A stretch of 64,000 nucleotides of DNA from a virus. Shown piece by piece: positions 1-58,600 of this stretch (the stretch's first letter is position 1; each line of letters opens with the position of its first letter). Both the position numbers and the translations under genes were made by a program. Where the stretch lies: the IMG/VR virus record IMGVR_UViG_3300030202_003282, positions 1-64,000 of that record, one strand, 5' to 3'. A model generated the notes under the pieces. The model searched no databases and was not told the origin of the DNA. It was given only the letters and a program-made list of their open reading frames with translations.

Positions 1-2
1 AC

Positions 3-4536: not shown

Positions 4537-4565
4537 GTAATTGAATACAATTAACTTTAAATAAT

Positions 4566-4601: not shown

Positions 4602-4613
4602 TATTCTTCAGTA

Positions 4614-4633: not shown

Positions 4634-4666
4634 TAATATATTATTACCTACAAAAAATTTTATAAA

Positions 4667-31321: not shown

Positions 31322-31323
31322 AT

Positions 31324-38600: not shown

Positions 38601-39263
38601 ACATCAGGTTTAATAACTGATTCAGAAAAACAACTAGTAACAATAAGGTTTAAAAAATCTATGGACAATAATCCTTTGGGAATGTCTGATACAAGATTTT
38701 CTCAAGTTGATTATGACATTCAAAGAAATGATGGTGTATATAATTGGAATGTACCTAATGGATTAGGTTTAAAAATTTGGAAAGAAGATGGTGCATATAT
38801 GAGATCATATACTCCAGTAATGTTTAATGATAAATCTGGAACAATACAAGTAAATCCAAATACTGGTCCAGGTAGAGCAGCTCCTATTACATATCTAAAC
38901 GGAAACCCTATTAGAAAAAAAGATTTAGATGTTTGGTTAAATAATTTTCAATCTACTGCATTACAAATGCATCAAGAACGTATTTTAATTCCAGAACAAA
39001 CATGGAAAAAAAATAATCCTGGAAAAATGGTTACATACGATATCCCTAAAAATTTATTACTTTCAAATTCTAATCCTGTTTTTCAACGTAATGTTTTGGA
39101 TTATGATCTTACAACAGATGTTGTTAAAGGTTTAACAGCAGGAGAAATTATGACGGATAATATTCTTAATCCACAAAATAGAAGGCCTAAAAATGCACCA
39201 AAAATGAATTCATCTGAAGATTTTTGGGAACAAGCATCAGATGCTTTTTCTTTTGATTGGTAA
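35667..39263 (+). CDS. Large internal virion (cargo) protein (1198 aa)
   Basis: The N-terminus (YIPGTQTFMPTFQPFTPDYK) followed by a helical domain with FLSDVINTKTNRYETNYKAI and a later FKPFYEDKLI is, as I remember, a pattern shared by cargo proteins encoded just before the virion RNA polymerase of crAss-like phages. The middle (about 330-480) is highly charged helix. The C-terminal half is mixed alpha/beta. No enzyme motif or membrane helix is seen. It is probably packaged with the polymerase and ejected. No gene separates it from the polymerase gene (23-base gap). Confidence 0.6.
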   Translation: MATYIPGTQTFMPTFQPFTPDYKFLSDVINTKTNRYETNYKAINDTYGRLIHSDLSRLDTQEQRDQYVNELAPRLEQIASTDLSLVQNADQANALFKPFYEDKLIVGDLVRTAALRRETAKAERYHYSDNPEERDLYGNGQGVKRMNYEMQDFINASPEEALNMPIPKFVPNADVHTMSMDLLKNAWGEGKGMTLTQDFLQNGWKIKKTNGDLLTNRVVGYAPTGQKDKNGQEILQPITENIAAAFVQKELLNDPRVLDSEWTKAYVSSREAADRGVIINGQTVYGDEAKRAWALERINFAKAANSKRVAMAKNHQQKTVQSGKDWQSYKDEYGIVKESPAEVEFLKTIMALEASNQEVEVAEEVANVSENVNTENADLKGLLNEAYGIVISSNLMGEISDASILYAASTSQMEMEIDQKWKMYKEQEFDLQKISINYQNDIRKIREKGIVDDAVNKAKFEREQNVKLEENAKLDALEALINGTSYDGDNNYRYERNEDGEPDPNTNIVTDDERSTWNTYFGSNGVIPTEKFNAIKAFMQEKAVISGGDQATFAWSNKKMSWDDAQKYLLNTEKGRAELNQLFNWTNKEQSLVGKKEGVMINLNDKDQVAYGYSPKMAQNQNFPAIRNMFKKAEGHEQMFADGSWKKMKNDYGNLVANAGVEINGKPSLITTYDKSGLPSPYISPFEQVLLNAVYAQKSSGLKYIDKAGGEHILNQNSANLASDIARIYGINVGQLKKDDQDVPLNTWEAIEYSKNLISEDSWNTLVSRSPLTKRYGYATTSKDTREGEYRWPTDRAGGEPEDVYASYRAAINKPYISAFAGAKSKEGTALEQPIFDLGQYMQGNSADDMTAVGGAKYPIHTEYIDPLNLGERDITMMSEIIKILNGPQSTYAVGFGTPQTFEFIKTDGSEEAKNTVITTINNVIKDAKTGTKAQSRNAFQIKYYTGYGQGDADEYAAYQVQVSKKEALALQKYLTGETSGLITDSEKQLVTIRFKKSMDNNPLGMSDTRFSQVDYDIQRNDGVYNWNVPNGLGLKIWKEDGAYMRSYTPVMFNDKSGTIQVNPNTGPGRAAPITYLNGNPIRKKDLDVWLNNFQSTALQMHQERILIPEQTWKKNNPGKMVTYDIPKNLLLSNSNPVFQRNVLDYDLTTDVVKGLTAGEIMTDNILNPQNRRPKNAPKMNSSEDFWEQASDAFSFDW

Positions 39264-39286: not shown

Positions 39287-42200
39287 ATGGAAGATTTTAA
39301 TCAACTAGATCCTCAATTACCTGATCCAACTGATCCAAATGGAGAATTTAATAATTTATTAGATCCTAATTTAAATTATGGAAAACCAGGTGCTCCTGAC
39401 ATGCCTGTAATAGATCCCAATTTTGCTGATGAAGTTGCAAATAGAGGTCTTCATACTGATTTAGGTTATCAAATGAGACAAGAATTTGATTATAAACCAA
39501 TTCAAGAATATTTAGCACCTGATATTCATGAAGGCTGGACAAATGCTGTAAATATGGAAACAGCTAATATGATTCAAGCAAATGCTCCAATGATTAACGC
39601 ATCATCTATAGGTGGTGTAAGTAATACTTTAGGAAGTAAGCCTGGACCTGCAGGCCTTGATTGGAATCCTTCTGGACCAACAGAAGATGATAGATGGCTT
39701 AATCAATTAAGTAATACTACAATTTCTGAAGATCAAACACAACCTGAAATGTTAGGGGATCCTATGGAGTTTGGTATAAGATCTAGCAATTTTGAAAGAT
39801 ATTATAATCATCCTAATTTTCAAAAGTTAGGATTTAACCCTTATGTAGATAATGAATCTTATTATAATGCTAACTCTAGTGCGTGGGATGATTCATTAAG
39901 AATGTGGCCACAATTTGGAGGACAATATGCAACAGGATTTAGTTCTATATTTAGATCAATAGGAGATTTATTTGATGATGATCCATATTTTACAGCTGCA
40001 GATATAGAAAGTGCACAAGAAATGCAAGATCAGATGAGAATTGGAATGAGTTCAAGAGGTGGTGCATCTGGATTCATGAATAACCTTACATTAAATTTGG
40101 GTTATACTGCAGGTATAGTTTCAGAAATGGCATTAGAAGAACTTGTATTATGGGGTGCTGCTGCTTTACAAGGTGGTATGAATCCAGCATCAGATGCAAT
40201 GGCTGTAGCATCAGGAGCAAATGTTATTAGAAGATTTGGAAACTTAGTAAAAGGTGGATTTGGATTTGTTAAAATGGCAGAAACAGCTAAACTTTTAAAA
40301 GCAATGACTGCTTCACAAACGGCTAAAGCTGTGTGGAATACTACTAAAGGTATTGGCAAAGGAGCTGGAAAATTCTTTACTCCTAATACTTTATATGCAA
40401 TGAAGTATTGGAGAACAACTGGAAAAGCAGCTGAAGGTTTAACTAATATGGCAAAAGTTTCAAGAACTGCCGGAGCATTTTATAGGGATGTTAGAGCAGT
40501 TAATCTTGCAGTTTCAGAATCTAAATTAGAAGGTGGATTAGTTTATAATGAAAGAATGAGTGCTGGTTTAGCACAATGGTATGCAAAACCTGAAAATAAA
40601 GGAAAACAACCTACAGCTCAAGATTTACAAGAAATACAAGTAAATGCTGCAAATGCTGCAAGTAGCACTGCTTTATGGAACATACCTTTTATATATGCTA
40701 CAAATAAACTTGTTTTAGATGGTGCATTAACAGGGTTTAAACCTATTAGTAGATTAATGGATGAAAGTTTAAGTGGTTGGCAAAGAAGAGTGATGCGTCA
40801 AGCAGCTACTAAAGGAGGTATGCCTCAAAAAAATATTTGGAAAAAAATATCAAAAGGAAAATTAGGAGGATGGTTGCCTAGCACACAAATGATGAAACAG
40901 TGGACTATAAAAGGTTCAATGAAAAGAGGAGCTGCAGGATCTTTAAGATATTTTTCTGGAAATTTAGGAGAAGGTGTTCAAGAGCTTTATCAAGAAGCTG
41001 TATCACATGGAATAAAAGATTATTACTCAGCTATATTTGATGATCCTGCAATGGCAGGTAGTGACGCTATGTTGGCATCAGCAGGTGAAGGCATTAAAAG
41101 TCAATGGGGTGCTCAAGGTGGTGAAGTGTTTTTATCAGGATTTTTAATGGGAGGACTGATACAAGGTCCTCAAAAATTATTTTTTGAAGGTGTTCCAGCA
41201 TTATATCAGTCTAAATTTCAAAAAGAAAAATGGAATGAATATCAAAAAAATAAAGAAGATTATATTGATTTAGCTGTTGAAAATCTTAACAATGTTCATA
41301 ATAGTCAAGTAGATAATCCAGATAAATTTATGGATTTTGATAAAATGAATTTTGTAGCTCAAAAACAAGCAGCAGAAGAAATGATGAAATCTGCTTATGA
41401 AAATGATGTTTATGGTTTTTATAATCATAAAGATGATTTAAAATATAGAGCTTTATATTCTGTACTTGGAGAATATAAAATGAAGGGTTATCTTAAAGAT
41501 CAATTAAAAGATTATTTAAAATTAGATGATAAAATGTTAGCTGAAGCTTTTCCAGGAAATCAAGCTGATATTAAAAACGGAAAATTTAGAGAAAGAATTC
41601 AAGATATGATTGGTCAAATTGATCAACATGATAAAATTGTAAGAAAAGACATGAGGCAAAATAAAAATCCTTATGACAGAACGCAATTTGAAGACGGAAG
41701 TACAGAATGGAAAAGAGAACTTTTAAGAGAAAGAGCTTGGGAACACGCACGTTTTTTAAAATTATTTACTAGAAATAAATGGAAAAGAGCAGGGGAAAGA
41801 ATACAAGAAATTGATAAAGAATTAGAATCACATCCAGTTCTTAGTAAGTTAGCAGCTAATGACTTAATTGCATTATCTGACGTAGAAACTTTAGATAGAG
41901 AAATAACTTTACTTAGAGAGGATTTAAAACTGACTAAAGGGGAAACTAAAAAAGAAAAAGAATTACTTAAATCTAAAACTGATAGATTACGTTTATTAGA
42001 AAATGTAAATAAAGTTTTAAATGATGAAACTAATTATAATAAAACTGGTCAAAGAAGAGGTCATTTTAACAAAAAGAAATTAAACAGTTTAGAAAAACCA
42101 GTTGTTAAATATTTGGAATATTTAGCAAAAGAAAGAAATCAGAATATAGAATGGGGTGAAGTTAAAGGTCTTATTGGCTTATTAGTAGACCGCACAAACT

Positions 42201-45200
42201 TAAAAGATGATTCTTTAAAATATGGCAGATCTGTAAGATTTATGGAAAACCCAAAAGAATTTGAAAAAATAGTTGATAAAACATTTGAGTATTTAGAAAA
42301 AAGATTTAAAAATGCTAAGTCTGAGTTGAGAAAAAGAATGAAAAAATATGCAGCTCAACAAGAAGGTATTGGTTTAGTAAAAGCATTTGAAAACTTAAAT
42401 GAAGGTAGTGGTGTAATTCCTACTCCAGAAGCTTTAGACTATTTCTTTAAAAGTGAAGATGCTACTGTATTTTTACAACAAACTGAAGATGGAACTTTAG
42501 TAAACTTAGTTACTGAATCTGGTGGTATTAATAAAGAATCAAGCCCATTAGTTTATAATGAAATTGTAAGACTTGTAGGTCAGTATAATAGAGCTCAAGG
42601 TCAAACAGAATCAGAGTCTGCTGAAGATATGTCAATGGGTGATGAATTTGATGTAGAATATGAAACAGATGAAACTAGTGAAAAAGCAACTGATGATCAA
42701 GTAAAAAAACCAAAAAGAAAAGTTGAAATATTAAAACCACAGGCTGAAGAAGTACTTAATAAAAAACATAAAAGTCATGTTAGTAAAACAATAACTGAAG
42801 GTGGTAAAAAACCTTTATCACCAGAAGGTTTTAGAAAAAGTAAAGAAGGTCAAAATATTATTAAAACTTTTATAAGGTTAGAAGAAAAATATCAAAACTA
42901 TTTAAACAGTGTACCTGAAGGACAAAACCAATTGCAATTTGAACAATGGCTAGCTTCTAATGAAACAAATCCAGAAATTGCTGACATTGTAAATAATGCA
43001 GGTTTAGCATTTTCAGATTTATCTGGAAAAGAAAATCCTCAAAATTTACCTGCTGATAAACTACAACCTTCTGATAAAGAAGTAAAAGATTATCAAATTC
43101 CTGGGTTACATCTTATAGAAAGAACTGGAGAAAGTGGAGACACAACAATAACTTATTATGTTATTCTTGATGAAAATGGTAATAATACATATAACACATA
43201 TAAAGGATTATCCACAGCTAAAACAAAAATTAATGACACATATACCACATTAGATGATGCCAAAAAAGCTTGGAGAAAAATTGAAGAAAATATGCCTGAT
43301 GATACTCCATTTGAATTTGATGGAGAACAACTATTTCATGGAGCTATAGTAAACAATAAAAAAACTAAAGATAAATATGTTGTTATATCTACACCAAAAG
43401 GATTAGCAAAAGGAAAACAAATGGGTAAAAGAAAATTATTTCTATTACCTCTTAATCTTGTTGATGCTCCAAAAGCACAAAAAAATAAAGGAACATTAAA
43501 GTTAAATGCAGGAGAATTTAAAAATAAATATGAATTAATTGATGAAACGTTTGAACCAGCACTTACAAATACAAGTAAGTTAAATCCAAATGAGTTTACT
43601 ACATTCTATGCTTGGGAAAATAAAATAGCTGGTGAATCAAAAGCTGATGCTCAAATGAGAATGGATTATATTTTAAATAATTTAACTAATGAAGAGTTAA
43701 ATAATTTAGAATTTGAAATAATTAGAAATAAAGAAGTAACTGCACCAGAACCTTTTCAAATTAAACAATCTAAAGATGGTAAAACATATGAGCCAAATAA
43801 TCAAGTTTTAATTGGTAGTGAACGTTACGGTATTGCTTTAGTTATAAAAGATCCTGCAGTAAGAGTTAAAGTAGAAACTATATTAGCAGAATCTAAAGCT
43901 TTTGCTGAGTTATTAGATAGCACTGGAAATCCATCCGGTAAATATTTAAATGAAAATGGAACAGTAGCATTTTATGGTGCAGCTAAACAAAGAGTTTTTA
44001 AAGATTCTTCTGGAAATACTATAGAAGTTCCTAATATGACATCTGCTCAAATAAGACAAATATTTAGACCATCATATAGTGGAACAGCACTTTACTTAGA
44101 TAAATCTATTAAAGATGGTTATGCTAAACAGCAATATATTTTAGAGCAATTATTAAAAGCTAAAGAAGCTGGGGCAGTTAGTGTTCCTGTTTCAAATTTA
44201 GATGGAGGAATAATATTAAAATCAAGTCCTGGAAGATTAGCATATGTATCAAAAGGTTCTGCTTTAGTTCCATTATCAGAATTATCAAACTATAGTGCGG
44301 ATAATAATGGTAATGTATTAATTTTAGACAATCAACGTGTAGACACTGAGTACACTAAAAAGGATCTGGAACAGTTAGAAAAAGATAATCCAGATACTAT
44401 ATATAAAGTAGATAATCAAGGCAAGGTTTATAAAGTTGCAGGAAATCCAATAAGTAATTTAAAAGGAAAAGCTTTAACTAAACTTTATAATGAGGTTAAA
44501 GCAGGTATGGGTAATTATTTAAATTCTGCAATGGCTGCTGGTAGATATGTGGCTATAATTAAATTACCAAATGGTGTATATACTTATGCAGAGCTGCAAT
44601 CACAAAAACTTAATGAAGAAGAAATATCAGATGTATTAGTAGATATTAAAGAAAGAGCTACTAAAACTATAAAAGATAATGTAGTTAAAGAAGAAAATGA
44701 ACCATGGTCAGATGCTACTGTAAAGGATGAATTTTACAACACTAAAATAAGTAAAACATATCCTGAAGGTTATAACAATGAATTAAATAAGAAATTTTAC
44801 ATATACAGTTTACCTGGTTATACTGTTAGTATGAAAGTAAGTTCTTATGGTTATGTTCAGATTGAATTTTATAATCAAAAAAATTCTGATAAAACATTTA
44901 CAATTAAAATTAATCAGGATCAGATTAGTGAAATGAAACCTGATATTGCAAATTTTAATGCTCTTGTTGGTGAAATTGCTACAGATTTTATAACTGGAAA
45001 TGAAAATTTATCTAAGTCTCAGAAACAAGCTTTAGAAACATTAGTTGCTGGAGGTACCATTTTTTCAACAGATAATTTCCGTAAATCTATTGATAGAAAA
45101 ATAACAAATGTTGATGATATAATAAATAATGTTGATTCAAAAATTGATAGTAGAATTAGATATGATGTTGGTTTATTAATTGATGTTACAGATTCTTCAG

Positions 45201-48200
45201 TAATACAAGCTTTAAAAGTTAAAGAAAATATTACTGATACACCAGTAGAAGAAACAGAAGAACCAGGTGGTAGTATAGATCTAAAAGATTTACAAAATCA
45301 AGATCCAACTATAAAATTAATTGATGATTTAACTGATGAAGAATTTAATGAAAGTAGAGAATTAGGATTTGAAGATATTAGTAATGAACAATTACAAGCT
45401 ATTGCTGATAAAGATCAAAACAAACTTTCTTCAAAAGAATCATTAGTTATTAAAGTATTAGATAGTAGATATCAACCAATGATAGCTGCTAAAGCTGTGG
45501 AAATGAGTACAGCTGCAAATAAAAGAACTGAGCTTCAAAATAAAAGAAAGGAAGTTATTGATGAAATAAAGCTTATCAAAGCAGAAAATAGAACTGCTGC
45601 AGGAGAATTATATCCTGAAGATAATGTTAAGATGAATAAAGAAAGAATGGCTCTTAACGAAAAATCTAAAAGGCTTAAAGCTTTAGAAAAAGAACAAAAA
45701 TCTATAGAAAGTCAATTAGCTAAAGGAGCTCTTAAAGTTGTTAGTGAATCAGCAGAGGTAAATAATCCTGAAGATTTAGATGTATTTATTGAATGGGTTC
45801 AAACTGTATTGCCAGACTTTGTAACTATTGGGGATATTAATACATTAAGAGAGCGTATAATAACAAATGGTTATACTGTAGGTGCATTTGTAATGAATTT
45901 AAAACAAATGTCAGGAGGTATAGATATTAACGGTACAATATTTACTGGAGAAAATATGCCTTCTAGATATCATGAAGCATTTCATGCAGTATTTAGAATG
46001 TTGCTTACAGAAGAAGAACAAAAAGTTTATTATGATATAGCAGCAAAAGAGGTTAGAGAAAAACTTAGAAAAGAAGGTAAAGTATTTAATGAGGAGTTAC
46101 AAAAACTTAAAAACTCATCAGTTATATATTCTAACTTATCTACTGAACAATTAAAGAAAGAATACTATGAAGAGTATATGGCGGATGAATTTGAAAAATT
46201 TAAAAAAGATCCAAAAAGTACTAAGACTAATTCTTTAATTAAATCATTATTTAACAGATTTGTTGAATGGATTAAAAGCATACTTGGAAATAAAAACAGA
46301 ACTGAACTAACAAGTTTCTTTAAAGCTATTAATGAAGGAAAATATAAAAATGCAACTATTCAAAACAATGCATTTACAGACAAGCCGTCATTAATGAATG
46401 GAGCTAATATTGCATTAGCACAAATTCCAATTGATTTTGTTGAGTATGAAACTTATAATCCATTTACAAAACAAGATGAAACTCAGTTTCAAACTGTATA
46501 TATGCCATCAAGAGATGTAGATAAAATACTGCATAGTATGGCAGCAATATATCTCAATAGAAAGATGAATGCTACTGGGGTTTGGATAGGTGCTGATCAG
46601 TTAGAAGATGTAATGGATCAATTTGCACTTATGTTTAATCCAGAGTCAGAAACTAATTTAATGAAGCCTGATTTAGATCAAATGGAAGATCAATTAGCAT
46701 TGTATAATGAAGCATTTGAGAATTCAATTACTAGAATGGAAATAAGAAATGCTGTAGAAAAAGTATTAAGTTTAGCTGATATTCAAATATCAGAAGAGGA
46801 AGAAATTATTGATGCCCAAGAAGAAACAAACGGTTTAAGAGATACTTCTCAATGGGATCTAGATGCAAGTATGATAGGAGGTTATTCATCATTAGCTTCT
46901 AGTTTAAGACAGTTTATAATGACAACTGCTGTTGAGACTTCTGATTCTTTTGGAAACACTGAATTACCTTCTGGAGAAAAACTTATTGTGCCTGTAAATT
47001 TTGTTGAAGCATATAATTTATTATTAAAAGCATCTGCTAATAGAACTAGTTCACAAGATGTATTAAAAGCCATGAATGCATTTACATTAAATGGCAATCA
47101 TGAAGGTGCTGCAGTAGTTGATAGAATTTTTACAGAAATAGGAATATCTAGAGATGATGTTTTAGCAGGAGATTTTGATAATGTTAAAAATCCATATTTT
47201 TATACATCAGTAATAAAAGCGTTTGATCAAGTTAGATTAGATTATATTTTTGTACATAGAGATGAAGACGGGAATGTATTATTATATGATGCTGCTTCTA
47301 GAGATGATGCTAAATCTCAGTTTAATCATTGGAATGATGCATATGATATGCAATTTGATAAACTAAGATTTGATTCAAAATTAAGAGAAGAAATCATAGA
47401 AAAACTAAGAGAACTACAAACTGAATACTTTGGAGAAAGTATGGCATCTCTTGATGGAAAAGCGGCTGATACTTTAATACAAGATTCTGAAGAATATTCT
47501 AATTTTATTCAAGATAAGTTAGGTATTTCACTTAGTCCCACATATATACAATATAGTATTCTTGATAATGTAGTAACTAAAAATGAAAGTCAACAAGCAT
47601 TGATGGATGTTTATACTGCTGAAGTATTAGATTTTGAAGATCTAGAACAAATGATGCTTCATTTAAGCCTTAATCAAAATCTTTTTGTACAAGAAGAAGG
47701 TGAAGGTATAAGAGGACGTTTAGAAAAATTAGCAAGAGGTAATGCAGCATTTGATGAAAGAATTGGTGCATCTGTTTTTAGAAATCCAAATGGAGATTTA
47801 GTTTATGCACATCAGTTACCTACAATGCATACGGTTAAAATTAATGAGTTAAATGATATAAATAACTTAGAAGATTTAAAAGATGGTGCATATTTAGAAA
47901 GAAATGCTTTATTAAATGATCCATATTTTTATCAATTAGCTACTGAAAAAAGAATAAAAGTTTTAAGAATAGCAGGTAGTAAAGAAGGAGGAACAATAGA
48001 TGAAGATACTTTAGTTGAAACAAGTGGTATGTCAAATGATGTTTCTGGTGTTACATATGGTGATTCAACTCCACAAGAATTTATAGTTGATTTAATAAAT
48101 GTGTATACTTATTTTTATAACACTAATAAAAAAGAAGTTGAAGGTGTTTCAATAGGTGATGATATTCCTAGAGCATTAGCTCCATCTTTAATAAGAGTTA

Positions 48201-51200
48201 TTGAAGCAAGTAATCAAGGTGATTTTATTGGACTACCTGTAATTAAATCTGTAGTTAAAAATGAAGATGGTGAAACAGCTATTAGTGAAGAAGCATTAAA
48301 TAAATTTGTAAATGAATTAGAAAACGAATATAATAGAATTAAACGTGAGTCAAATACAGATACAGCAACTGAGGATCTTATAGTAGGATATAATGCCCGT
48401 GAAGCAAATGGTACAATTATACCGGATGAATCAGGTAGAGCATTTAAATTATCTAATACCGGAAATTTAGTTTCACCTAAAAAAGCTAGAAGTATAGATA
48501 GAAGTAGATCTGTAGATGAAATATATGTAGCTCCAGAACAAGCAGAGTTATTATATGATGAAAAAAATCCAACCAATTTAATAATTAGAACACCAGCTAC
48601 TGCAATTAAATTAGGAATACGTAATGGAGAAACTGCTACAGTTGACATAACTAAAAAAGGTAATAAAAAAACACAAGATGAAATAGAAAAATTTACATTA
48701 AGAAGTAGAGGTAAAATAACAGTTGATGAAACTAATATTGATTCTATTATTAAAGCATTTGGAAGTTCTGTAAGTACTACAGAAGTAAAAGATTGGTTTG
48801 ATTTAAAAATAGGTGATAAAAAATGGTGGGTTCAAAACTATAAAATTTTACAATTTTTACAAGGTAAGAAAGCAATGGTTGCTTATGATATTACTAAGGG
48901 AGAAACAGCACCGGTTGATACTCAATCAACACAACCAACTAGTGATGTTGAAACTTATAAAGGTCTTGTTGATATCAAAAACTTAAAAGATAATGAAGAT
49001 ACTGCATTTGGATCTAATCAATTTGGATTTCATGGTGGTGGTACGGCAGGAATACTTTATGCAAATGATCCAAGAGCTTACAAAAAACAAGAGATTGAAG
49101 GCAAAGGTCTTAGAGTAGAAGTAGGTAAAGCTAGAGGATTTCAAACGGGTATAGAAGGTTCATCTTATGCATTACAAACTGTAACTGATTGGAAACTTAA
49201 AATGAATGATCCTAAAAGACAAGTTTCTAAATCTGAAATTACAAGTCAGATAAAAGACATGTATGATTACTATAGAAAAAACTCTGATAGAAAAGTATAT
49301 GTACTTTATACAACAGGTGGTAAAAACTTAAACGGGTATAGTTCTTTAGAGATGGCAAAAATGTTTGCATCTGCAGGTCCAATACCGTCTAATGTTGTTT
49401 TCAATGAAGACTTAATAGCTTTAGTAGACACCGCTTCTCAACCAATAGAACAAACTAGTGAGGTTGAAGCAGAAGAAGGTAGTGAAGCAATTCAACAAAC
49501 TAAATTATCAGAATCTCAGATTTTTGAAGATTTAAAAACTAAATTAGAAGAAAAAGCTAAAGCAGGAAGATCATTTAAACAAGCTCTTAATGAAATACCA
49601 GGTATTGATCAAAATATACTTAAGAGTTTAATGGAAGAAAGATTGATGGAGGAGTTTCAAGATTTTAGAATTACACTAGATGAAATTAATGCAACTAATT
49701 CTATATCCTCTAAGATTTTAGATGGCTTCTTTAATGAGAATAATAAAGTTGGACCTCTTGAAAATGATGCAATGAATGCATTAAATTTAAGAACAGAAGA
49801 CCCTGATTTTAACTTAATGCAAATTTATTTTAATGATTGGCTTAATTCAAAATCCTTTAATGATGTTATATTAGGAGATCAAGCAATGTCATTAAAAGAT
49901 GCTGTAGAAAAAATTAAAAGAGCTAAAGCTAATAATGCAGCTGGATATAGTGCACAAACAGATATATATAATGAAGATATAGATATACTACATCCTGTTG
50001 AAAATATTTCTTTGTTTACTATAACAGATCCTAAATACAAACAATTGTTTGATTTTGGAAAAGAAGGAGAAGGAGATAAAGCTGATGCTCAGATGTGGAT
50101 GACAATTAAAGCATTTCAATATATGTGGTTTGGTTTTGGTAAATTAAATGCAAAACAAAATGCCATTATACAAAAATTAAAGAAAGGTGAAAAATTAACT
50201 TCTGAAGATATATTTGGTAATCCAGAAACAGGAGCTGAAGGTTTAAAATCATTTAATGCATTTATAAATTCTAAAAAACTAGTATATGCAGATGGAAATA
50301 CTTTCTTAAAAATGTCAGCATTTGTTCTTACTAAACAATTAACATCTAGAAAAAATTCACAAGGACAGTGGGTTGCTAAAGAAAATAGAAAAGAGCTGCA
50401 TAGTCTTAGAGAAAACTTAGAATCTTTTGAAGAAAGAGAATGGAATGAAAATGGTAATGGAACATTAGCAATTGCTACACCAATGTCAGCTAGCAAAATG
50501 TTTAAGTCAAGTGTACTTAATGAAGAAAAGTTATTTTCAAGTTCAGAAAATTTAGCTGTAGATCAATCTACAACACTTAGTGCAAAATGGATGAGACTTC
50601 AAATGATAAATCCATCTGGTAAAGTAACTATTACTGATCCTACACAAATGAAAAGTTTAGTTACTAGTGAACAAAATGATGCAACAGAAGTTTGGATTAA
50701 TGGTGAAAAAACTGATTTAGGAACTATAAGAAAAGCTTATCAAAAATCTACTTCAAATAGAGCTCAGTTAAAATTTATTAATCAAAGAAATTTATTACTT
50801 GATTTTAATGTAGAAACTGCAATGCGGGAATTAGAAACAAGTAAAATAGAAGGAGATTTTACAGTAGATTTACATTCATTTTTAGAATATGCAATAGAAG
50901 GATTAGAATCTTCTCAATCATCTGCAAGTATAATAGAGTATTTTAGACAAGATGCGGATGGACAATCAAGAAATTTAAATAACCCTATTACAATAAATAA
51001 ATTTGAACAATTATTTTTATCATATTTTAGTAAGCAAGTATTTAGAGAAAAAATTCCAGGACATAAAGTTTCTTTACTTTCTGGAAAGGGATTTAAAGTA
51101 TATAGAAAAGTATTAAGTGTTGATGAAAATGGTCAACCAGAAAGATCTGAAATAATAAGAGATGATCAATGGGAAGCAATGTCTGAAAATGAAAGACCAG

Positions 51201-54200
51201 CTCTTTTTAAAACAGAATATGATGATGTAAAAAATAAAACTTTTGTAGGATTAGAGCAAGCATTAAAAAGTAATATAAAAGGTGGAGTTGTTGTTTTAGA
51301 TGAACTTAAATTTAATGTAAAAGAGTTTGATGAAAATGGTAATGAAACTGGACAAAGATATGCTGAATATATAATGCCTCCTCATTTTAAATCAATAATG
51401 GATAAAATTATTGCAACAGGTGGAGAAACAATTACAGCTTCTGAAATTCAAAAGAAATGGAAAACTTGGGCTAATACAAAATCTTATTCTCCTAAAGCTG
51501 ATGATTATATAGTAAGATCAAAAATAGAAGGATTTGATGCAAATAGATCTAAAAAAGAATATGCTGTTGCATTTGGTTATGCAACAACAACAAACAAAAA
51601 AGGAGACATTGTATTTTTATCAAAAAATGGTAAAGGTCTTGCTAATATTCCAGAAACTGTTGCTAAAGCATTTGGTGTACGTATTCCATCACAAGATATG
51701 CATTCATCTATTAATTTAAAATTAGTTGATTTTATGCCTGCATATTATGGTTCAACTGCTGTATTTCCGGATTCATTAATTGAAGTATCTGGTGCGGATT
51801 TTGATATTGATGCTCTATACATGCAGATAAAAGACTTTTATGAAGATGGGAATTCTTTTAAATCTTACGGTAGTGCAACTACTAAAATAGGAAAGTATAG
51901 AGAATATATTGACTATCAAATGAAAGATGCTTATAAAGGAGGATCTTCATTAGATGCAGCAAGAAAAAAATATTTAGCAAAAGGAGTTAACCGTAATACT
52001 TCATTAACGGATAAACAAAAAGCTAAAGCTAAAGAAGAAGGTTTGAGTGATGATGTTATAGGAGCATTAATGGTGTTAGGATTACCTATAACTCAAAAAC
52101 AATATGAAACTTATAAAGCAGAGCGTTCTTATACAGTTGGAAAAGGAGAAAATAAAATAGAGTTTGAACAAGAACCATATGCAGCTCCTATAAATAATGA
52201 TGTGTTAGATCAAAAATTTGCATTGTTAGGAAATGAAGCAATGACACTTACAAAAGATGGAAGACAAGTTCCTATTGCATATGAATCAGCTGTATTAGAT
52301 CCATTACTAGAAGAATGGGATTGGATTCAAGAAAACTTACCAGAATTAGCAGAATTAACACAAGAAGATGATGTAGATGTAGATAATTTAAGCGGTAAAT
52401 TAAAAGCATGGACAAACAATAAAGAAGGTGCAAGAGGAATTGGTGCTGCAGTATTACCAAATGTTATTCTTAATTTACTTAAAGAAGCCCGTGTAAAATA
52501 TAGAAGTATTAAAGTTGATGGTAGAGAAACATATCCTCAAATAAGATATAATGGAGTAACCTTTAATGAATTTGGTACAGAAATAGAAATTGATCCAATA
52601 ACTAAAAAAGAAAAGGTTGGTGGAGAAAGAACTCAATTTGTTATATCTGCACTTATTACAGCAATGACTGATAATGCTAAAGAAAGATTAGCTGCAAAAT
52701 TAGGATTAAACAAAGATGCATTAGCAACTGTTGTTAATCTTACTGCATTAGGTGTTCCAATAAGAACATCAATTTTATTAATTAATAACCCAATGATAAA
52801 AAGATTTTATTGGGAAAATTCAAATAAAGAAAATCCAGAAGATGCTGGAATTTTTAAAAGAGTTAAAGATATGTTAACTGGACCTGGCGGATTAGAAGAC
52901 GTGTATTTAAGTTTATATGGAAAAGATCTTGCTACTGATGCTAAACTAGAAGTAACTGATGCAAAGTTATCAGAAGCAATTAAAGAAATGAATGACTTTA
53001 ATTCAGATGAAAGAAAGTCAGGTACTATGTTTAGTTCAAAAAACGCTGAATCAAGAAGGTATAGTAAATCAATGTTTCAAAGAGATTATAAAATTTTAAA
53101 ACAATGGCAAAGTGCTCATAGACTTAAAAAGTTTACAGGTGAGCTTCAAAGTGTAGTTAATCTTGCAAAAACATTAGGTCAAAACTTTCAAAATGTTCAA
53201 GATAGAAATAATGCTGTTGAAAATTTAGGATTGTTTTATGAAGGACCGTATTCTTCTTTAACAATGTCAAATATAACTAATGAACCAATTGGTTTACCAT
53301 TAGAAAATGGATGGCAAAAAATATTTAAAGGTGATGATCAAACATTCCATGGAAACAATCTTAATATGGATAGACAATTGCAAGATCTTTTACCTAAAAT
53401 CTTTTTATCTAAAACTGAAAAATTCCAAGATATATTAAATGTTACACTTAGTAATATGAATCAAAGAGTTTTACAAGATAGATATAAGGGTTCAAAATTA
53501 TATGATAAAATAAGTACAGATCTTATTTCATATGTAACAATTAAAGCTTATATCCAAGGACTAAGAAAAGCGGGTAAACCTGTAAGTTTATCATCATTGA
53601 ATAATGGGCTTATCTATAAAGAGAATGGAAGCCCGGTTCAAATAGATGATGTAATAAATAGACTTAGAAAGGTATATGAAGGTAAAGAAAATTATTTTTT
53701 AAATAGATTTATTTTTAATGATTCACAATATAAACCTACAAATACTACTGGTATTAATCAGTTAAAATCTACTACCTGGACAAAAGTATCACCAGCACAA
53801 GTAGAAAAAATTCAAAATGGATTTGCAGATATATTTAGTAATATAGATACTAGATCAGATGCAATACATATAGCTCATTATTTAATGGTTAAAGATGGAT
53901 TGCAGTTTAAAAGCGGAAGTATTTTATCAGCAATGGCTCCTTTTATTTATGATCTTTATTTAGATTATGTTGATATAGCACATGAAGCATTTCAAACAGA
54001 AGAAGATAATAAAGCATTTGCAGATATATTTGGTATGAGCCATAAAGAAATGATAGGAGACTTTACATTAGGTTATCTTAAAGCTAACCCAATAAACTGG
54101 ATGTTAAATACTGTTGGTAATAGTGGAAGAAAAAATGGAAGAAATATAGGTGTATATGCACCAGGTGAAAACAAATATCAAATTGGATCATTTAAAATTG

Positions 54201-55621
54201 AAAATGTTGAAGCAGATCAAGATAATGCATATGTATTTTCAGAATCTCAAGGTTATAAAGGGAATGCAAAAATTAAAGATCTTGATAATGCATTTGGTAT
54301 TCAGTTTAAAAAAGATGCTGGAATAACTGAAGAAAGTTATTTTACTAATGATGATTTAGCAGATTTTCAAGAATTGATTGATGCTCAAATTGATGCTATA
54401 TTAGATGACGGAAGAAATGTTATTTTTCCTAGAACATTTTTAAGCAAAACTGAAAAAACAAATATTGCTAAATATGGTCCTGAAATTTTTAATTACATGC
54501 AACAAAGAATGCAAGATGTATTTAATTATAATATAAAAACTAATGATATAACAGCTGAAGGAAAAATAAGTGAAAAAGCTGCTGCTAATAGACCTGCATT
54601 AATATTAGAAACTGAAGAAGGAAATGGATTAATAGTAGATGTATATAATGGTGTAATAGCAAGACCTTCTGAAACAACATCAAAAAATGAAATTAATGAA
54701 AGATTTTATAGTAATGTAAGTAAAAAAGCTAATAAACAAGTAAGTATTAATCTATCAACTTTAGAAAGAACTCATGGTTTTAAAACAGTTAGAGTAGACA
54801 CTAAAGATGGATTAAGAACAGAAATAATTTTTCCTGCAGAGCTTAGAGTAAAAGAAATGATTGCAGAAAAAAATGAAAATGGAAGATTAATTAAAACACC
54901 TTTTATTAGAACGTTTGAATTAAAAAAGATTTGGAGTGGGACTAAAACAGGATCAACAGAATTATTGACTACAAATCAACCAGTAGCTATTGGCAATAGA
55001 GCTGAATATATAGAAACTACTCCGGTTGGTTCAAATCAAGCAACTCCAATTGCATTTTCATTTGATGGTGAAGTTCCAACATATGAAAACATTAGAAGAG
55101 GAGTGCTTGAAAGAGAAGAAGGAGATAATGATAATGAAGACAGCAATCCATTTAGTGCTGGTGTTATAGGCAATAAAAAATTTATAACTAAAGAAGATTT
55201 AGCTAAAGAACAAGCAGTACAAAATGGAAATATTAAAGCAGATGAAAATGAAATACTTGTAAATGGTGAAAATATTGCAGGTATTAATAAACAAGAAGAA
55301 ATTGAACCTACTATAGAAGATAATGGGTTAAATGAAACTACAGTTGTAGATCCTACAGATAGTGGACCTAGTATTGATATAGAAGCTTTAGGTTATACAT
55401 TTCCTGGTTCTGTTGATGAATCTTTTGTATTAATAGATAACTTTATTGAAACTGAAATAAAATCTAAATCTAAAGCTGAACAAACAGAACTTTGGAAAAA
55501 GATGAAAGAAAATAGTGAAGGTATAATTAAAGATGAAGAATCAACTATAGAGGCATATCAAGACAGTGTGTTTGAAACTGAAGAAGAATTCATTGATTAT
55601 CTAAAAAAATGTATAATTTAG
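39287..55621 (+). CDS. Giant fused virion RNA polymerase with zincin protease and macro-like domains (5444 aa)
   Basis: A single 16.3-kb frame. Residues 1-800 include Gly/Ala-rich hydrophobic parts (about 270-310) and long charged helices. A zincin motif, HEAFH (H2229-E2230...H2233), with a downstream EEYMADEF near 2293 supplies a probable third ligand. Residues about 3222-3385 resemble macro-like A1S_2505 proteins (GSNQFGFHGGG from 3242, later SSYALQT). The RNA polymerase core holds R4132-I-P-S-Q and D4171-F-D-I-D4175; cellular beta-prime has R-A-P-T about 40 residues before DFDGD, and crAss-like phi14:2 polymerase uses DFDID. The three aspartates would bind catalytic magnesium. The enzyme is probably packaged and transcribes early genes after ejection. 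Far longer than the roughly 2200-residue phi14:2 enzyme, so it is a fusion that may be cleaved. Ends with TAG. Confidence 0.85.
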   Translation: MEDFNQLDPQLPDPTDPNGEFNNLLDPNLNYGKPGAPDMPVIDPNFADEVANRGLHTDLGYQMRQEFDYKPIQEYLAPDIHEGWTNAVNMETANMIQANAPMINASSIGGVSNTLGSKPGPAGLDWNPSGPTEDDRWLNQLSNTTISEDQTQPEMLGDPMEFGIRSSNFERYYNHPNFQKLGFNPYVDNESYYNANSSAWDDSLRMWPQFGGQYATGFSSIFRSIGDLFDDDPYFTAADIESAQEMQDQMRIGMSSRGGASGFMNNLTLNLGYTAGIVSEMALEELVLWGAAALQGGMNPASDAMAVASGANVIRRFGNLVKGGFGFVKMAETAKLLKAMTASQTAKAVWNTTKGIGKGAGKFFTPNTLYAMKYWRTTGKAAEGLTNMAKVSRTAGAFYRDVRAVNLAVSESKLEGGLVYNERMSAGLAQWYAKPENKGKQPTAQDLQEIQVNAANAASSTALWNIPFIYATNKLVLDGALTGFKPISRLMDESLSGWQRRVMRQAATKGGMPQKNIWKKISKGKLGGWLPSTQMMKQWTIKGSMKRGAAGSLRYFSGNLGEGVQELYQEAVSHGIKDYYSAIFDDPAMAGSDAMLASAGEGIKSQWGAQGGEVFLSGFLMGGLIQGPQKLFFEGVPALYQSKFQKEKWNEYQKNKEDYIDLAVENLNNVHNSQVDNPDKFMDFDKMNFVAQKQAAEEMMKSAYENDVYGFYNHKDDLKYRALYSVLGEYKMKGYLKDQLKDYLKLDDKMLAEAFPGNQADIKNGKFRERIQDMIGQIDQHDKIVRKDMRQNKNPYDRTQFEDGSTEWKRELLRERAWEHARFLKLFTRNKWKRAGERIQEIDKELESHPVLSKLAANDLIALSDVETLDREITLLREDLKLTKGETKKEKELLKSKTDRLRLLENVNKVLNDETNYNKTGQRRGHFNKKKLNSLEKPVVKYLEYLAKERNQNIEWGEVKGLIGLLVDRTNLKDDSLKYGRSVRFMENPKEFEKIVDKTFEYLEKRFKNAKSELRKRMKKYAAQQEGIGLVKAFENLNEGSGVIPTPEALDYFFKSEDATVFLQQTEDGTLVNLVTESGGINKESSPLVYNEIVRLVGQYNRAQGQTESESAEDMSMGDEFDVEYETDETSEKATDDQVKKPKRKVEILKPQAEEVLNKKHKSHVSKTITEGGKKPLSPEGFRKSKEGQNIIKTFIRLEEKYQNYLNSVPEGQNQLQFEQWLASNETNPEIADIVNNAGLAFSDLSGKENPQNLPADKLQPSDKEVKDYQIPGLHLIERTGESGDTTITYYVILDENGNNTYNTYKGLSTAKTKINDTYTTLDDAKKAWRKIEENMPDDTPFEFDGEQLFHGAIVNNKKTKDKYVVISTPKGLAKGKQMGKRKLFLLPLNLVDAPKAQKNKGTLKLNAGEFKNKYELIDETFEPALTNTSKLNPNEFTTFYAWENKIAGESKADAQMRMDYILNNLTNEELNNLEFEIIRNKEVTAPEPFQIKQSKDGKTYEPNNQVLIGSERYGIALVIKDPAVRVKVETILAESKAFAELLDSTGNPSGKYLNENGTVAFYGAAKQRVFKDSSGNTIEVPNMTSAQIRQIFRPSYSGTALYLDKSIKDGYAKQQYILEQLLKAKEAGAVSVPVSNLDGGIILKSSPGRLAYVSKGSALVPLSELSNYSADNNGNVLILDNQRVDTEYTKKDLEQLEKDNPDTIYKVDNQGKVYKVAGNPISNLKGKALTKLYNEVKAGMGNYLNSAMAAGRYVAIIKLPNGVYTYAELQSQKLNEEEISDVLVDIKERATKTIKDNVVKEENEPWSDATVKDEFYNTKISKTYPEGYNNELNKKFYIYSLPGYTVSMKVSSYGYVQIEFYNQKNSDKTFTIKINQDQISEMKPDIANFNALVGEIATDFITGNENLSKSQKQALETLVAGGTIFSTDNFRKSIDRKITNVDDIINNVDSKIDSRIRYDVGLLIDVTDSSVIQALKVKENITDTPVEETEEPGGSIDLKDLQNQDPTIKLIDDLTDEEFNESRELGFEDISNEQLQAIADKDQNKLSSKESLVIKVLDSRYQPMIAAKAVEMSTAANKRTELQNKRKEVIDEIKLIKAENRTAAGELYPEDNVKMNKERMALNEKSKRLKALEKEQKSIESQLAKGALKVVSESAEVNNPEDLDVFIEWVQTVLPDFVTIGDINTLRERIITNGYTVGAFVMNLKQMSGGIDINGTIFTGENMPSRYHEAFHAVFRMLLTEEEQKVYYDIAAKEVREKLRKEGKVFNEELQKLKNSSVIYSNLSTEQLKKEYYEEYMADEFEKFKKDPKSTKTNSLIKSLFNRFVEWIKSILGNKNRTELTSFFKAINEGKYKNATIQNNAFTDKPSLMNGANIALAQIPIDFVEYETYNPFTKQDETQFQTVYMPSRDVDKILHSMAAIYLNRKMNATGVWIGADQLEDVMDQFALMFNPESETNLMKPDLDQMEDQLALYNEAFENSITRMEIRNAVEKVLSLADIQISEEEEIIDAQEETNGLRDTSQWDLDASMIGGYSSLASSLRQFIMTTAVETSDSFGNTELPSGEKLIVPVNFVEAYNLLLKASANRTSSQDVLKAMNAFTLNGNHEGAAVVDRIFTEIGISRDDVLAGDFDNVKNPYFYTSVIKAFDQVRLDYIFVHRDEDGNVLLYDAASRDDAKSQFNHWNDAYDMQFDKLRFDSKLREEIIEKLRELQTEYFGESMASLDGKAADTLIQDSEEYSNFIQDKLGISLSPTYIQYSILDNVVTKNESQQALMDVYTAEVLDFEDLEQMMLHLSLNQNLFVQEEGEGIRGRLEKLARGNAAFDERIGASVFRNPNGDLVYAHQLPTMHTVKINELNDINNLEDLKDGAYLERNALLNDPYFYQLATEKRIKVLRIAGSKEGGTIDEDTLVETSGMSNDVSGVTYGDSTPQEFIVDLINVYTYFYNTNKKEVEGVSIGDDIPRALAPSLIRVIEASNQGDFIGLPVIKSVVKNEDGETAISEEALNKFVNELENEYNRIKRESNTDTATEDLIVGYNAREANGTIIPDESGRAFKLSNTGNLVSPKKARSIDRSRSVDEIYVAPEQAELLYDEKNPTNLIIRTPATAIKLGIRNGETATVDITKKGNKKTQDEIEKFTLRSRGKITVDETNIDSIIKAFGSSVSTTEVKDWFDLKIGDKKWWVQNYKILQFLQGKKAMVAYDITKGETAPVDTQSTQPTSDVETYKGLVDIKNLKDNEDTAFGSNQFGFHGGGTAGILYANDPRAYKKQEIEGKGLRVEVGKARGFQTGIEGSSYALQTVTDWKLKMNDPKRQVSKSEITSQIKDMYDYYRKNSDRKVYVLYTTGGKNLNGYSSLEMAKMFASAGPIPSNVVFNEDLIALVDTASQPIEQTSEVEAEEGSEAIQQTKLSESQIFEDLKTKLEEKAKAGRSFKQALNEIPGIDQNILKSLMEERLMEEFQDFRITLDEINATNSISSKILDGFFNENNKVGPLENDAMNALNLRTEDPDFNLMQIYFNDWLNSKSFNDVILGDQAMSLKDAVEKIKRAKANNAAGYSAQTDIYNEDIDILHPVENISLFTITDPKYKQLFDFGKEGEGDKADAQMWMTIKAFQYMWFGFGKLNAKQNAIIQKLKKGEKLTSEDIFGNPETGAEGLKSFNAFINSKKLVYADGNTFLKMSAFVLTKQLTSRKNSQGQWVAKENRKELHSLRENLESFEEREWNENGNGTLAIATPMSASKMFKSSVLNEEKLFSSSENLAVDQSTTLSAKWMRLQMINPSGKVTITDPTQMKSLVTSEQNDATEVWINGEKTDLGTIRKAYQKSTSNRAQLKFINQRNLLLDFNVETAMRELETSKIEGDFTVDLHSFLEYAIEGLESSQSSASIIEYFRQDADGQSRNLNNPITINKFEQLFLSYFSKQVFREKIPGHKVSLLSGKGFKVYRKVLSVDENGQPERSEIIRDDQWEAMSENERPALFKTEYDDVKNKTFVGLEQALKSNIKGGVVVLDELKFNVKEFDENGNETGQRYAEYIMPPHFKSIMDKIIATGGETITASEIQKKWKTWANTKSYSPKADDYIVRSKIEGFDANRSKKEYAVAFGYATTTNKKGDIVFLSKNGKGLANIPETVAKAFGVRIPSQDMHSSINLKLVDFMPAYYGSTAVFPDSLIEVSGADFDIDALYMQIKDFYEDGNSFKSYGSATTKIGKYREYIDYQMKDAYKGGSSLDAARKKYLAKGVNRNTSLTDKQKAKAKEEGLSDDVIGALMVLGLPITQKQYETYKAERSYTVGKGENKIEFEQEPYAAPINNDVLDQKFALLGNEAMTLTKDGRQVPIAYESAVLDPLLEEWDWIQENLPELAELTQEDDVDVDNLSGKLKAWTNNKEGARGIGAAVLPNVILNLLKEARVKYRSIKVDGRETYPQIRYNGVTFNEFGTEIEIDPITKKEKVGGERTQFVISALITAMTDNAKERLAAKLGLNKDALATVVNLTALGVPIRTSILLINNPMIKRFYWENSNKENPEDAGIFKRVKDMLTGPGGLEDVYLSLYGKDLATDAKLEVTDAKLSEAIKEMNDFNSDERKSGTMFSSKNAESRRYSKSMFQRDYKILKQWQSAHRLKKFTGELQSVVNLAKTLGQNFQNVQDRNNAVENLGLFYEGPYSSLTMSNITNEPIGLPLENGWQKIFKGDDQTFHGNNLNMDRQLQDLLPKIFLSKTEKFQDILNVTLSNMNQRVLQDRYKGSKLYDKISTDLISYVTIKAYIQGLRKAGKPVSLSSLNNGLIYKENGSPVQIDDVINRLRKVYEGKENYFLNRFIFNDSQYKPTNTTGINQLKSTTWTKVSPAQVEKIQNGFADIFSNIDTRSDAIHIAHYLMVKDGLQFKSGSILSAMAPFIYDLYLDYVDIAHEAFQTEEDNKAFADIFGMSHKEMIGDFTLGYLKANPINWMLNTVGNSGRKNGRNIGVYAPGENKYQIGSFKIENVEADQDNAYVFSESQGYKGNAKIKDLDNAFGIQFKKDAGITEESYFTNDDLADFQELIDAQIDAILDDGRNVIFPRTFLSKTEKTNIAKYGPEIFNYMQQRMQDVFNYNIKTNDITAEGKISEKAAANRPALILETEEGNGLIVDVYNGVIARPSETTSKNEINERFYSNVSKKANKQVSINLSTLERTHGFKTVRVDTKDGLRTEIIFPAELRVKEMIAEKNENGRLIKTPFIRTFELKKIWSGTKTGSTELLTTNQPVAIGNRAEYIETTPVGSNQATPIAFSFDGEVPTYENIRRGVLEREEGDNDNEDSNPFSAGVIGNKKFITKEDLAKEQAVQNGNIKADENEILVNGENIAGINKQEEIEPTIEDNGLNETTVVDPTDSGPSIDIEALGYTFPGSVDESFVLIDNFIETEIKSKSKAEQTELWKKMKENSEGIIKDEESTIEAYQDSVFETEEEFIDYLKKCII

Positions 55622-55635: not shown

Positions 55636-58600
55636 ATGGCTAAATGTATAAATAGAAGTGCTCCAGAATATGCTCCTTTATTAAAGAAGTATAAGTCTGT
55701 AATTACAGTAGATAGTATTATAAATAAATGGCAAGATTTTAATTTTGGTACAGATTTATTTCCTACAGTAGCACAAGCGGAAGAATATCTTAATAATAAA
55801 AAAGCAGTATATTCATTAAAACAAAGAGAATTTGATGAAGCGTTAGTTGCTAATTTAAGAAAATTAGGTTTAGTGCAAAGAAGAAATGTAAATGGTCAAT
55901 TAACTATTTATGTGCAGAATACGCCTAAAGAAGGAGCCCCTTATATATTTAGAGCAGAAAAAGATCAGCTGTTAAATAATGAGCAATCTAAAAAAGTTGC
56001 AGATGAAAATTTTAATAAAGTTTTAAAATATCTGCAAGTTCACGGAATGCCTTTAGATTATTTTATTCCTACGTATACAAAAAGAACTATAAGATTAGAT
56101 GTTAATCCTTCTGCAGTTAAACCAAAAGATATAATAGAAATAGCTAAAAAAGCTACTAGAAAAATTTCTCCTAATACTACTGCAATATTAGAGCATTTAG
56201 GACAAATGTTTCCTCAATTAAATATTAATGTAGTTAATAAAGAACAAGCACGTAGATATTGGGAATCATTACCACAAGCAATAAGAGGGTTAAATAAAAA
56301 TAAATTTGACCAGGTAAACTCATTTTACTATAGAGGAAATGTAATATTAATTGAAGGAAGAATTAATAGTGAAACAGCAATAGAAGAAGTATTACACCCA
56401 TTTATGGATGCAGTATATGCACAAAATAAAAGTTTATTTGAAGGTTTATTGTCAGAAGCTAAAGAAAACTTTCCTGAATTAGTTGTTAAAATTGAAAATG
56501 CATATAAAACTAGTGATGATGTATTTTTTGATCAAACTCAAATAGATAAAGAAATAGTAACACAAGCTTTATCTAGACATTTTAATAGAGAATATGAAAA
56601 TAATCCAACAGAAAGTTGGACAACAATGATAAAAGATTTGTTTGATTTTTTTATGACAATTTTAAAAGATCTACATAAATATATAAGTGGTAAAAATTTA
56701 AAAGGAGTTAGAGTTGAATCTATAGTTGGCTTTGCAAAATTATCTGATATTGCTAAACTTTTAAATACTTCAAATATTTCATTTGATTTATCATTAGCAA
56801 ATAAAGATAAAATAAATAAAGTTCAGTATTCTTTATCTCCAGGTAAAATGGCTATTATAAATGCTGCAATAGCACAAGGAAATCCGCTTCAACAAAAAAT
56901 TGTAGCACAATTATTTCATACACCTGGAAATGTACCTATGGATAAAGATAGTGCTTTTACAGATGAAGATGGTAATTATGATTTTTTAACTGCTACAGGA
57001 GTACAGGATGGTGAAACTATAATAGTATTAAATGCAAAAGATCATGTATACTATAATGTAAAGACGGGAGAAGCATATACATCAGCTACTACTGTTATAA
57101 AAGGTACAATGCCTGAATCAGTGAGAAAAGATAAAAGAATAGCTCTTGAATTAGGAAATGATTTTGATGCAATTACAGACGGTATAGCTGCAGGATTAAC
57201 TTTAGATCAAATTAAAGATAATATGACAATATTAGATCCTGAAGTAATTAGAGATGCATATAATCAAATATTTGCAACAGTTAATAATATTGAAATGGAA
57301 CCTACAATGGTGGGTAAACCAGAAAGAAATATTGTTTTACCACAAGTAATTTTATATGATGAAAAGACAAAAACTGCTGGTACAGTAGATTTAATGGTTA
57401 TTACACCAACAGGACAAATAAGAATTATAGATTTAAAAACTAGTAAAAATTCAATTAACAAAATTGATAGATTTTCTAAAAGTCCTGCATATAGTACAAA
57501 TAGTTTTCCTTTAGGAGAAGATTCTAAATTATTATATGAAACTGAAGATGGTCAATATTTATTAGATTCAAAAGGTAATAAAATTAGAAAAACAGAATTA
57601 TCTGGAAAAAGAAAAGGTTTGCCTTTACGTATAGAAATGACTACAAAGCAACAACATGATATGCAAGTTAATCTTTATAGAAGAATGGCTGAAAACATGG
57701 GGTTAGAAATTGAGCATGGTAGGTTAGGTACAATGACTTATCATATTCATGTTCCTTGGACTACAAAAGATTTTAATAAAGATGGTAAATATACAGGAAC
57801 ATTTAGATTAGAAGGTTTCCAAGTTCAACAAGATCAACAAAATGAACTTTATATTGATCAATTAGTACCTGAAGATAGAAATAGTTGGAGTGCTGAAAAA
57901 ATGCAAAGAACGGTTGAGCAAGATGAAAATTCTCCTTTAAAGGATAATTATTTAAATGATAACGAAGCATTGCCAGAAGATATTACTGATGCAAATGGGC
58001 TTACAGAATACAATACTATTTTTACTGCATTGCAAGATTTTAAACAAGGATTGTTAGATAGAAAAACTGCATTATTACAATTAAGATCAGCAATTACATT
58101 AGACAAAACAAGAGCTGAAGCTGTTGAAATGATTGATGATAAAATAGCTGCTATTGAAGTTGCAACTTTAATAGGTGATGGTAAAAAAATGGCAGCTGAA
58201 TATACTAGACTTATGACATCTTCTATTAAAGAAATGGATAAGTTTATAGAATACATGAATAATCCTAAAAATTATAATTCTCAAAAGTATATTAATTATG
58301 CTTTAAATTTTGACAAGTTTATTGCAACATATTCTGGATTAAGAAATATAAAAAAATCTGGAGATTTGAATAATACTCAGATGAAATTATTATTGACTTT
58401 AGAAGATAAACTTAAAGAAATTGGTGGTTATCAAAAATCAGGTGGAGAAGTAGTAGAAGGACTTGTAGATAAAGCTATTTCAAATTATGTTAGAACATAT
58501 GTTAAAGAAAATAGTAACAGAGAAGATTTAGATGATGCTACATTAGATAGTATAATGAAGTTAGGTGAAGACATAGGCATGTTTGAATTTGGAACTTATG

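Follow-up and report, generated by a model that had tools for sequence, protein, structure and literature searches.

Results

A giant frame joins a zincin-ended protein to a virion RNA polymerase

The DNA analyzed here (the window, 64,000 nucleotides) comprises positions 1 to 64,000 of the IMG/VR record IMGVR_UViG_3300030202_003282, a virus record of 116,753 bases. It contains one open reading frame (ORF) for a protein of 5,444 residues, which is complete, with an ATG start and a single stop codon (Table 1). A first-pass annotation from the sequence alone had read this ORF as a single giant carrying a protease, a macro-like domain and an RNA polymerase (RNAP), with about 2000 residues ahead of the zincin-type protease and a full polymerase behind it. 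The ORF, its motifs (HEAFH from residue 2229, DFDID from residue 4171) and its family matches agree with that layout. By homology, the giant is a fusion of two Crassvirales virion cargo proteins, one of the crAss001 gp47 type and one of the crAss001 gp50/phi14:2 gp66 type.

Table 1. Features of the giant ORF and its neighbors in the window
Feature	Position	Strand	Details
Upstream protein, probable ejected cargo	35667..39263	+	1,198 aa, cysteine-free; position and Cys depletion only
Giant fused gp47-gp50 type virion RNA polymerase ORF	39287..55621	+	5,444 aa
Conserved, almost all-helical N-terminal region, aa 130-1100	39674..42586	+	HMM E 9e-11 to crAss001 gp47 aa 359-902
Zincin-type metalloprotease domain, aa 2195-2320	45869..46246	+	HEAFH aa 2229-2233, EExxAD aa 2295-2300
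N-terminal domain of virion RNAP, aa 2402-3063	46490..48475	+	structure match to 6VR4 residues 95-759
Possibly ASCH-like inserted domain, aa 3072-3205	48500..48901	+	VIA-align Z 5.0 to 5y6b, 99 aligned, rmsd 3.8, weak
Macro-like A1S_2505-family domain, aa 3241-3374, same slot	49007..49408	+	NCBIfam NF049995, phrog_2072
RNAP catalytic region, aa 3430-4960	49574..54166	+	profile to 6VR4 E 1.1e-31
DFDID catalytic Mg-binding motif, aa 4171-4175	51797..51811	+	aligned in 6VR4
DUF7831 domain, lineage-specific insert, aa 4969-5073	54191..54505	+	Pfam PF25176 E 1.4e-11
Only cysteine codon of the giant, Cys5442, third residue from end (..KKCII)	55610..55612	+	
RNAP-associated subunit, crAss001 gp49 / phi14:2 gp65 homologue	55636..61521	+	1,961 aa
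Only cysteine codon of the downstream protein, Cys4 (MAKC..)	55645..55647	+	
Exonuclease-like domain inside the gp49-type protein	57049..57717	+	PHROG 298
HMM, hidden Markov model; rmsd, root-mean-square deviation.

The 16.3-kb frame is real, complete and under selection. A search of viral contigs with the polymerase region returned 80 relatives, in which the zincin and DFDxD nearly always share one frame if the contig is long enough, and homologues of 4.3-5.5k residues occur in dozens of other viral contigs. Once more upstream DNA of the relatives was included, complete homologous frames emerged, reaching 5,462 aa. Of 40 other viral records, 30 contained the first 1,000 residues of the giant, within single open frames of 3,261-5,468 aa, and the polymerase is missing only from the shortest of these. 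Over 5,403 codons aligned with the closest relative (L088/G001, 5,462 aa), the ratio of nonsynonymous to synonymous substitution rates (dN/dS) is 0.33; it is lowest in the zincin and polymerase blocks, and is 0.19-0.21 over residues 2251-3000, which include the zincin-polymerase joint. Merging of separate genes by an assembly or frame error, which the first-pass annotation had named as a possible refutation, is thus refuted to the point of being negligible, as the same single frame stands in many independent contigs and named genomes and purifying selection spans the joint. An intein inflating the frame was rejected, with no intein-family match and one cysteine in the entire frame.

HMMs of segments, built from 36 environmental relatives and searched against named crAss-like proteins, divided the giant at the joint. 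Residues ~150-2320 match crAss001 gp47, with the zincin as its C-terminal domain, and residues ~2310-4960 match the virion RNAP (crAss001 gp50, phi14:2 gp66, PDB 6VR4). An AlphaFold model of the N-terminal 971 residues is almost all helical (mean predicted local distance difference test, pLDDT, 65), as crAss001 cargo proteins are also predicted to be (PMC10172136); a fold search with these residues found no PDB match below E 0.001. The zincin segment matches the crAss001 gp47 zincin (E 8e-17), and its HExxH and downstream EExxAD are kept in 36 of 36 aligned members, with H, E, H and E invariant. The same region gave a weak sequence match to Pro-Pro endopeptidase (E 0.4), and a zincin fold was absent from the structure matches listed for modelled residues 2195-3390.

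In that model, the RNAP N-terminal domain aligned with 6VR4 at a VIA-align Z of 11.0 (539 aligned, rmsd 6.8; Foldseek E 2.6e-12). The polymerase therefore starts right after the zincin, at the gp47/gp50 boundary. For the catalytic region, hhalign gave 99.5% to phi14:2 gp66 and 99.8% to crAss001 gp50, the profile alignment spanning gp66 805-1056 and 1318-1851, and the segment HMM matched gp50, gp66 and p-crAss gp44 (within its first half) at E 6e-22 to 3e-33. A single-sequence PDB search with the C-terminal third returned nothing useful, and a profile was required for the 6VR4 match. Within DFDID, D, F, D and the final D are invariant across 36 sequences. Pfam and PHROG scans of the giant gave few matches; the DUF7831 region was found in 12 of 35 other environmental relatives.

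Judged by homology and by the position of DxDxD, the giant belongs to the Crassvirales-type virion RNA polymerases, and by analogy with relatives for which virion packaging and early activity have been shown, the same most likely holds for the giant. It resembles phi14:2 gp66 in the DFDID motif, the catalytic profile and the N-terminal fold. It differs in that gp66 is not fused to a gp47 part and no macro-like or DUF7831 insert was detected there. The first-pass annotation compared the giant with the phi14:2 polymerase; that comparison was incomplete, since gp66 (2,180 aa) is only one of three subunits.

Fusions and splits fall at two fixed boundaries

The fused state is already known, and the giant is not an assembly joint and probably not a new kind of polyprotein. 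Virion RNAP fusions in crAss-like phages have been noted (PMC10770324), and a review states that RNAP genes reach ~6,000 aa (PMC10136315). Fused versions in other named crAss-like phages measure 4,070-4,774 aa. Those of cr1_1 (gp_19430, 4,551 aa) and cr50_1 (gp_05258, 4,774 aa), both Suoliviridae, are deposited as single coding sequences with both the zincin and DFDxD, a terminal cysteine and a downstream gp49 with Cys5 or Cys3; they are shorter than the window's giant and annotated as "hypothetical protein" and "DNA helicase", not as RNAP. Flavobacterium phage Fpv3 has a 4,287-aa homologue that includes the polymerase. p-crAssphage also has a giant fused RNAP (gp44, 4,070 aa), but the fusion is at the other boundary, gp50 being joined to gp49; its zincin part, gp45, is separate, and the C-terminal cysteine of gp45 faces Cys3 of gp44. 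Length, motif position and terminal cysteines point to the same gp50+gp49 fusion in cr3_1, cr271_1, crAss002 and cr127_1. In phi38:1, no RNAP subunit was identified in the stretch examined.

True splits among the relatives are confined to the gp47|gp50 and gp50|gp49 boundaries. The first-pass annotation had held that homologues always split at fixed points would refute its view; this pattern does undo the idea of a new polyprotein, while the fusion itself stays real. Other apparent splits all lack a junction cysteine. Those ahead of the zincin in L037/L105 and L074/L124, where the frames overlap by ~40-65 nt, look like frame errors and were rejected as gene boundaries. The L041/L108 split was likewise rejected; it reflects a 79-nt deletion (L108 around 13927, reverse strand) relative to the ~95-97% identical L118, either real or an assembly collapse. 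cr108_1 is also fused, but some 290 nt, which are probably an intron, part AGSD from YDIDKMY in the catalytic motif and so break its RNAP frame (L131 23300-23760).

Cysteines mark the facing ends of the cargo proteins

The only cysteine of the giant stands at its end, and the only cysteine of the next protein at its beginning (Table 1). This arrangement is a rule among the relatives. A cysteine lies within the last five residues in 77 of 78 giants and, as members of one family are not independent, in 50 of 51 clusters at 70% identity, which corrects for kinship in part; among relatives with long flanks the count is 40 of 40, and the neighboring sequence is freely variable. Per 1000 residues, the giants have 0.071 internal cysteines, compared with 7.55 cysteines in 39 other ORFs from the giants' own loci. 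The downstream gp49-type products, whose start codon was taken as the one nearest the giant's stop without using the cysteine in the choice, carry a cysteine at residue 3-6 in all 75 testable cases (the sole cysteine in 71) and none near the C-terminus. None of 35 giants has a cysteine near its N-terminus, and the environmental fused forms have none in the 300 residues following HEAFH, the span that holds the fusion joint.

Facing terminal cysteines were found at 18 of 18 gp47-gp50-gp49 gene boundaries in 14 named genomes (phi14:2, crAss001, DAC15, cr128_1, p-crAss, crAss002, cr3_1, cr271_1, cr127_1, cr1_1, cr50_1, cr108_1, Fpv3 and Lbo-JY46), a count that includes the gp50 cysteines of crAss001 and cr128_1, 7-8 residues before the last one, and crAss002 gp33 with a corrected start. 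In phi14:2, gp67 ends in ..IC, gp66 has Cys3 and ends in ..ECK, and gp65 has Cys3, so that the middle protein bears a cysteine at both ends (Cys3 and Cys2179). The series in crAss001 reads gp47 ..RCNS, gp50 Cys5 and Cys2404, and gp49 Cys5. The outer ends of the set, the N-terminus of the gp47 part and the C-terminus of gp49, are without cysteine.

We found no published notice of the terminal cysteines, the main structure papers included; subscription literature was beyond the search, and an earlier notice is possible. The cysteine rule is the new result of this analysis; the fusion is not. It also aids annotation, having told true gene boundaries from frame errors and exposed a mis-set start codon: crAss002 gp33 (L135 11243) was probably annotated to start 32 codons too early, and an internal start gives MSC... 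The N4 ejection proteins gp50, gp51 and gp52 contain zero cysteines, so ejected proteins may avoid cysteine in general; the terminal cysteines of crAss-like phages stand out against these cysteine-free proteins.

Cysteines close to one terminus, mostly sole ones, were also seen in other probable cargo proteins (L084 gp47 and gp48, L135 gp30, L087 gp30 and the L138 coding sequence at 29334-31358); examples are p-crAss gp47 ..QSCR, crAss002 gp30 ..RCGGKKKIA and Fpv3 gp30 Cys5. Coupling by terminal cysteines may extend past the RNAP set.

Discussion

A proposed model of covalently coupled ejection

In crAss-like and N4-like phages, several giant folded polymerase subunits have to exit through a narrow tail in the correct order and number, a problem without a settled answer. 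In crAss001, gp47, gp49 and gp50 are virion components, proteins of the tail and portal vertex form disulfides, and the tail has constrictions under 50 Å, so that the cargo must partly unfold to pass (PMC10172136). Passage of the giant through a channel, as the first-pass annotation supposed, is accepted here for the tail channel by analogy. crAss001 has the same three homologous parts, a zincin-ended gp47 and facing terminal cysteines; it differs from the window in that gp47 and gp50 are encoded separately, each on its own strand of the DNA, and in that no macro-like insert was detected.

We consider it probable that the giant, a gp47+gp50 fusion, is ejected intact, and that gp47, gp50 and gp49 form one covalently coupled chain, linked by a disulfide or a peptide bond. 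The leading part of the giant is the helical, zincin-ended gp47-type protein; behind it comes the virion RNAP of the gp50/gp66 type, with two putative double-psi beta-barrels. The giant would most likely be packaged and ejected as a single, partly unfolded chain, refold in the host and transcribe early genes along with the gp49-type product of the next gene. The three functional units would thus travel covalently joined in the order gp47, gp50, gp49. Where the genes are separate, terminal cysteines on facing ends would form a disulfide in the virion; where they are fused, a peptide bond would replace it and the cysteine pair would be unneeded. Internal cysteines would have been purged so that the unfolded chain cannot mispair, and once in the host, reduction in the cytoplasm would break the links and release the subunits. 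Such coupling would let the parts exit the capsid in order and in equal number. With somewhat less assurance, we favor the broader proposal that Crassvirales inject their transcription machinery as a disulfide-coupled protein train, in which fusion and disulfide are interchangeable and the RNAP carries an exchangeable effector slot. The terminal cysteine pairs offer a concrete and cheap test in the cultured phages phi14:2, crAss001 and DAC15. If true, the proposal would add to protein ejection a new principle, namely that cargo proteins are coupled to one another.

Several points weigh against this model. We infer the cargo-cargo disulfide, and gp47, gp49 and gp50 are unresolved in the crAss001 atlas. 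Gut phages infect anaerobes, and their virions take shape in a reducing cytoplasm, which would leave only a late stage for the bond to form. The cysteine of L073 lies 14 residues from the end. Strict cysteine depletion is not universal, as the cargo proteins of Intestiviridae and Crevaviridae keep several internal cysteines; in these families one cannot tell whether the pair has been lost where gp50 and gp49 are fused. Moreover, homodimer bonds or another partner would equally need terminal cysteines. The last point is the core of a rival explanation, which accepts the gp47+gp50 fusion and assigns the cysteines to homodimer disulfides, portal or tail attachment, a shared metal site or lipid attachment. 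Terminal thiols fit any of these roles, and crAss001 virions have many other disulfides; however, at each gene boundary the two facing ends both carry a cysteine, the outer ends of the set carry none, and cysteines are missing at the fused joint of the environmental genomes. We regard these other roles as unlikely, though deserving of some weight.

The first-pass annotation had suggested a polyprotein or an extreme packaged machine. In the polyprotein reading, the internal zincin would cut the 5,444-aa chain into gp47-like and RNAP-like parts, in the head or after injection. A zincin with a conserved active site lies exactly at the joint. For polyvalent proteins, such zincins have been proposed to process themselves, and for P1 DdrB this has been inferred (PMC5512222). 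However, the N4 virion RNAP, also with an HExxH domain, is packaged unprocessed (PMC5512222). In addition, the apparent active site is kept whether the gp47 and gp50 genes are fused or separate, so the zincin is not needed merely to part gp47 from gp50, and cut parts would end unlinked because the fused forms lack joint cysteines. Coupling by terminal cysteines argues that the parts stay joined. With genuine splits only at the two subunit boundaries, the polyprotein reading is unsupported, and we hold it to be improbable, a little more so than the other cysteine roles. The zincin may instead act in release or in cutting host proteins after injection (PMC5512222).

The giant has partial parallels in other giant packaged RNAPs fused to further domains, N4 vRNAP gp50 (3,500 aa) and the P23-45 TMP-RNAP (5,002 aa). 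N4 vRNAP shares an HExxH domain with the giant but is an unrelated, T7-like polymerase with zero cysteines, and the fusion partner of the P23-45 RNAP is the tape measure protein (TMP).

A slot for exchangeable modules in the polymerase

The N-terminal domain and the catalytic part of the RNAP are separated by a slot, which measures 27-73 residues in most relatives but about 190-270 in some of them. In the window it holds the possibly ASCH-like insert, which occurs in a minority of relatives, and the macro-like domain. The latter matches NCBIfam NF049995, the A1S_2505 phage family that we read as macro-like (E 7.8e-13, 48.6 bits, cut-off 45) and phrog_2072 (E 9e-14), has an AlphaFold pLDDT mostly <50 and gave no Pfam Macro match over residues 3241-3374. 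The sequence matches support it at the family level. It is a lineage-specific insert, found at this slot in no other aligned relative.

In the sister genome L088, ~80% identical in the polymerase, an ART-PolyVal ADP-ribosyltransferase (ART; Pfam PF18760, E 1.5e-7, above cut-off) replaces the macro-like domain in one and the same slot (window 48434-49636), a swap based on single genomes. The gp49-type proteins of L005 and L048 gave weaker ART matches, below cut-off, and L113 has a macro-like domain near the C-terminus of its giant. A search of viral contigs for further macro or ADP-ribosyltransferase inserts, limited by its short peptide patterns, returned only the sister genome itself. By these matches, a virion polymerase exchanges modules in the manner of polyvalent proteins. 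Polyvalent proteins (PMC5512222) likewise combine a zincin with exchangeable effector domains; they differ in backbone, which in the window is a crAss-like RNAP. The swap suggests that the virion polymerase also delivers early anti-host functions.

Genome and neighboring genes

TerL of the genome matches crAss-like terminases, and its portal and major capsid protein (MCP) match the PHROG portal and major head protein families; by these three proteins the genome falls within the order Crassvirales. The exonuclease-like PHROG 298 module, found in the gp49-type protein of the window, resides in gp47 of crAss001 (L085 gp47 aa 1697-1853). Window positions 21773-28129 encode another probable ejected protein of 2,118 aa, which has an SLT transglycosylase domain and zero cysteines. 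The contig ends (window 1-320 and the end of L003) both lie inside the MCP gene with a near-identical, inexact overlap (28 exact bases), which suggests a circularly permuted, nearly complete genome.
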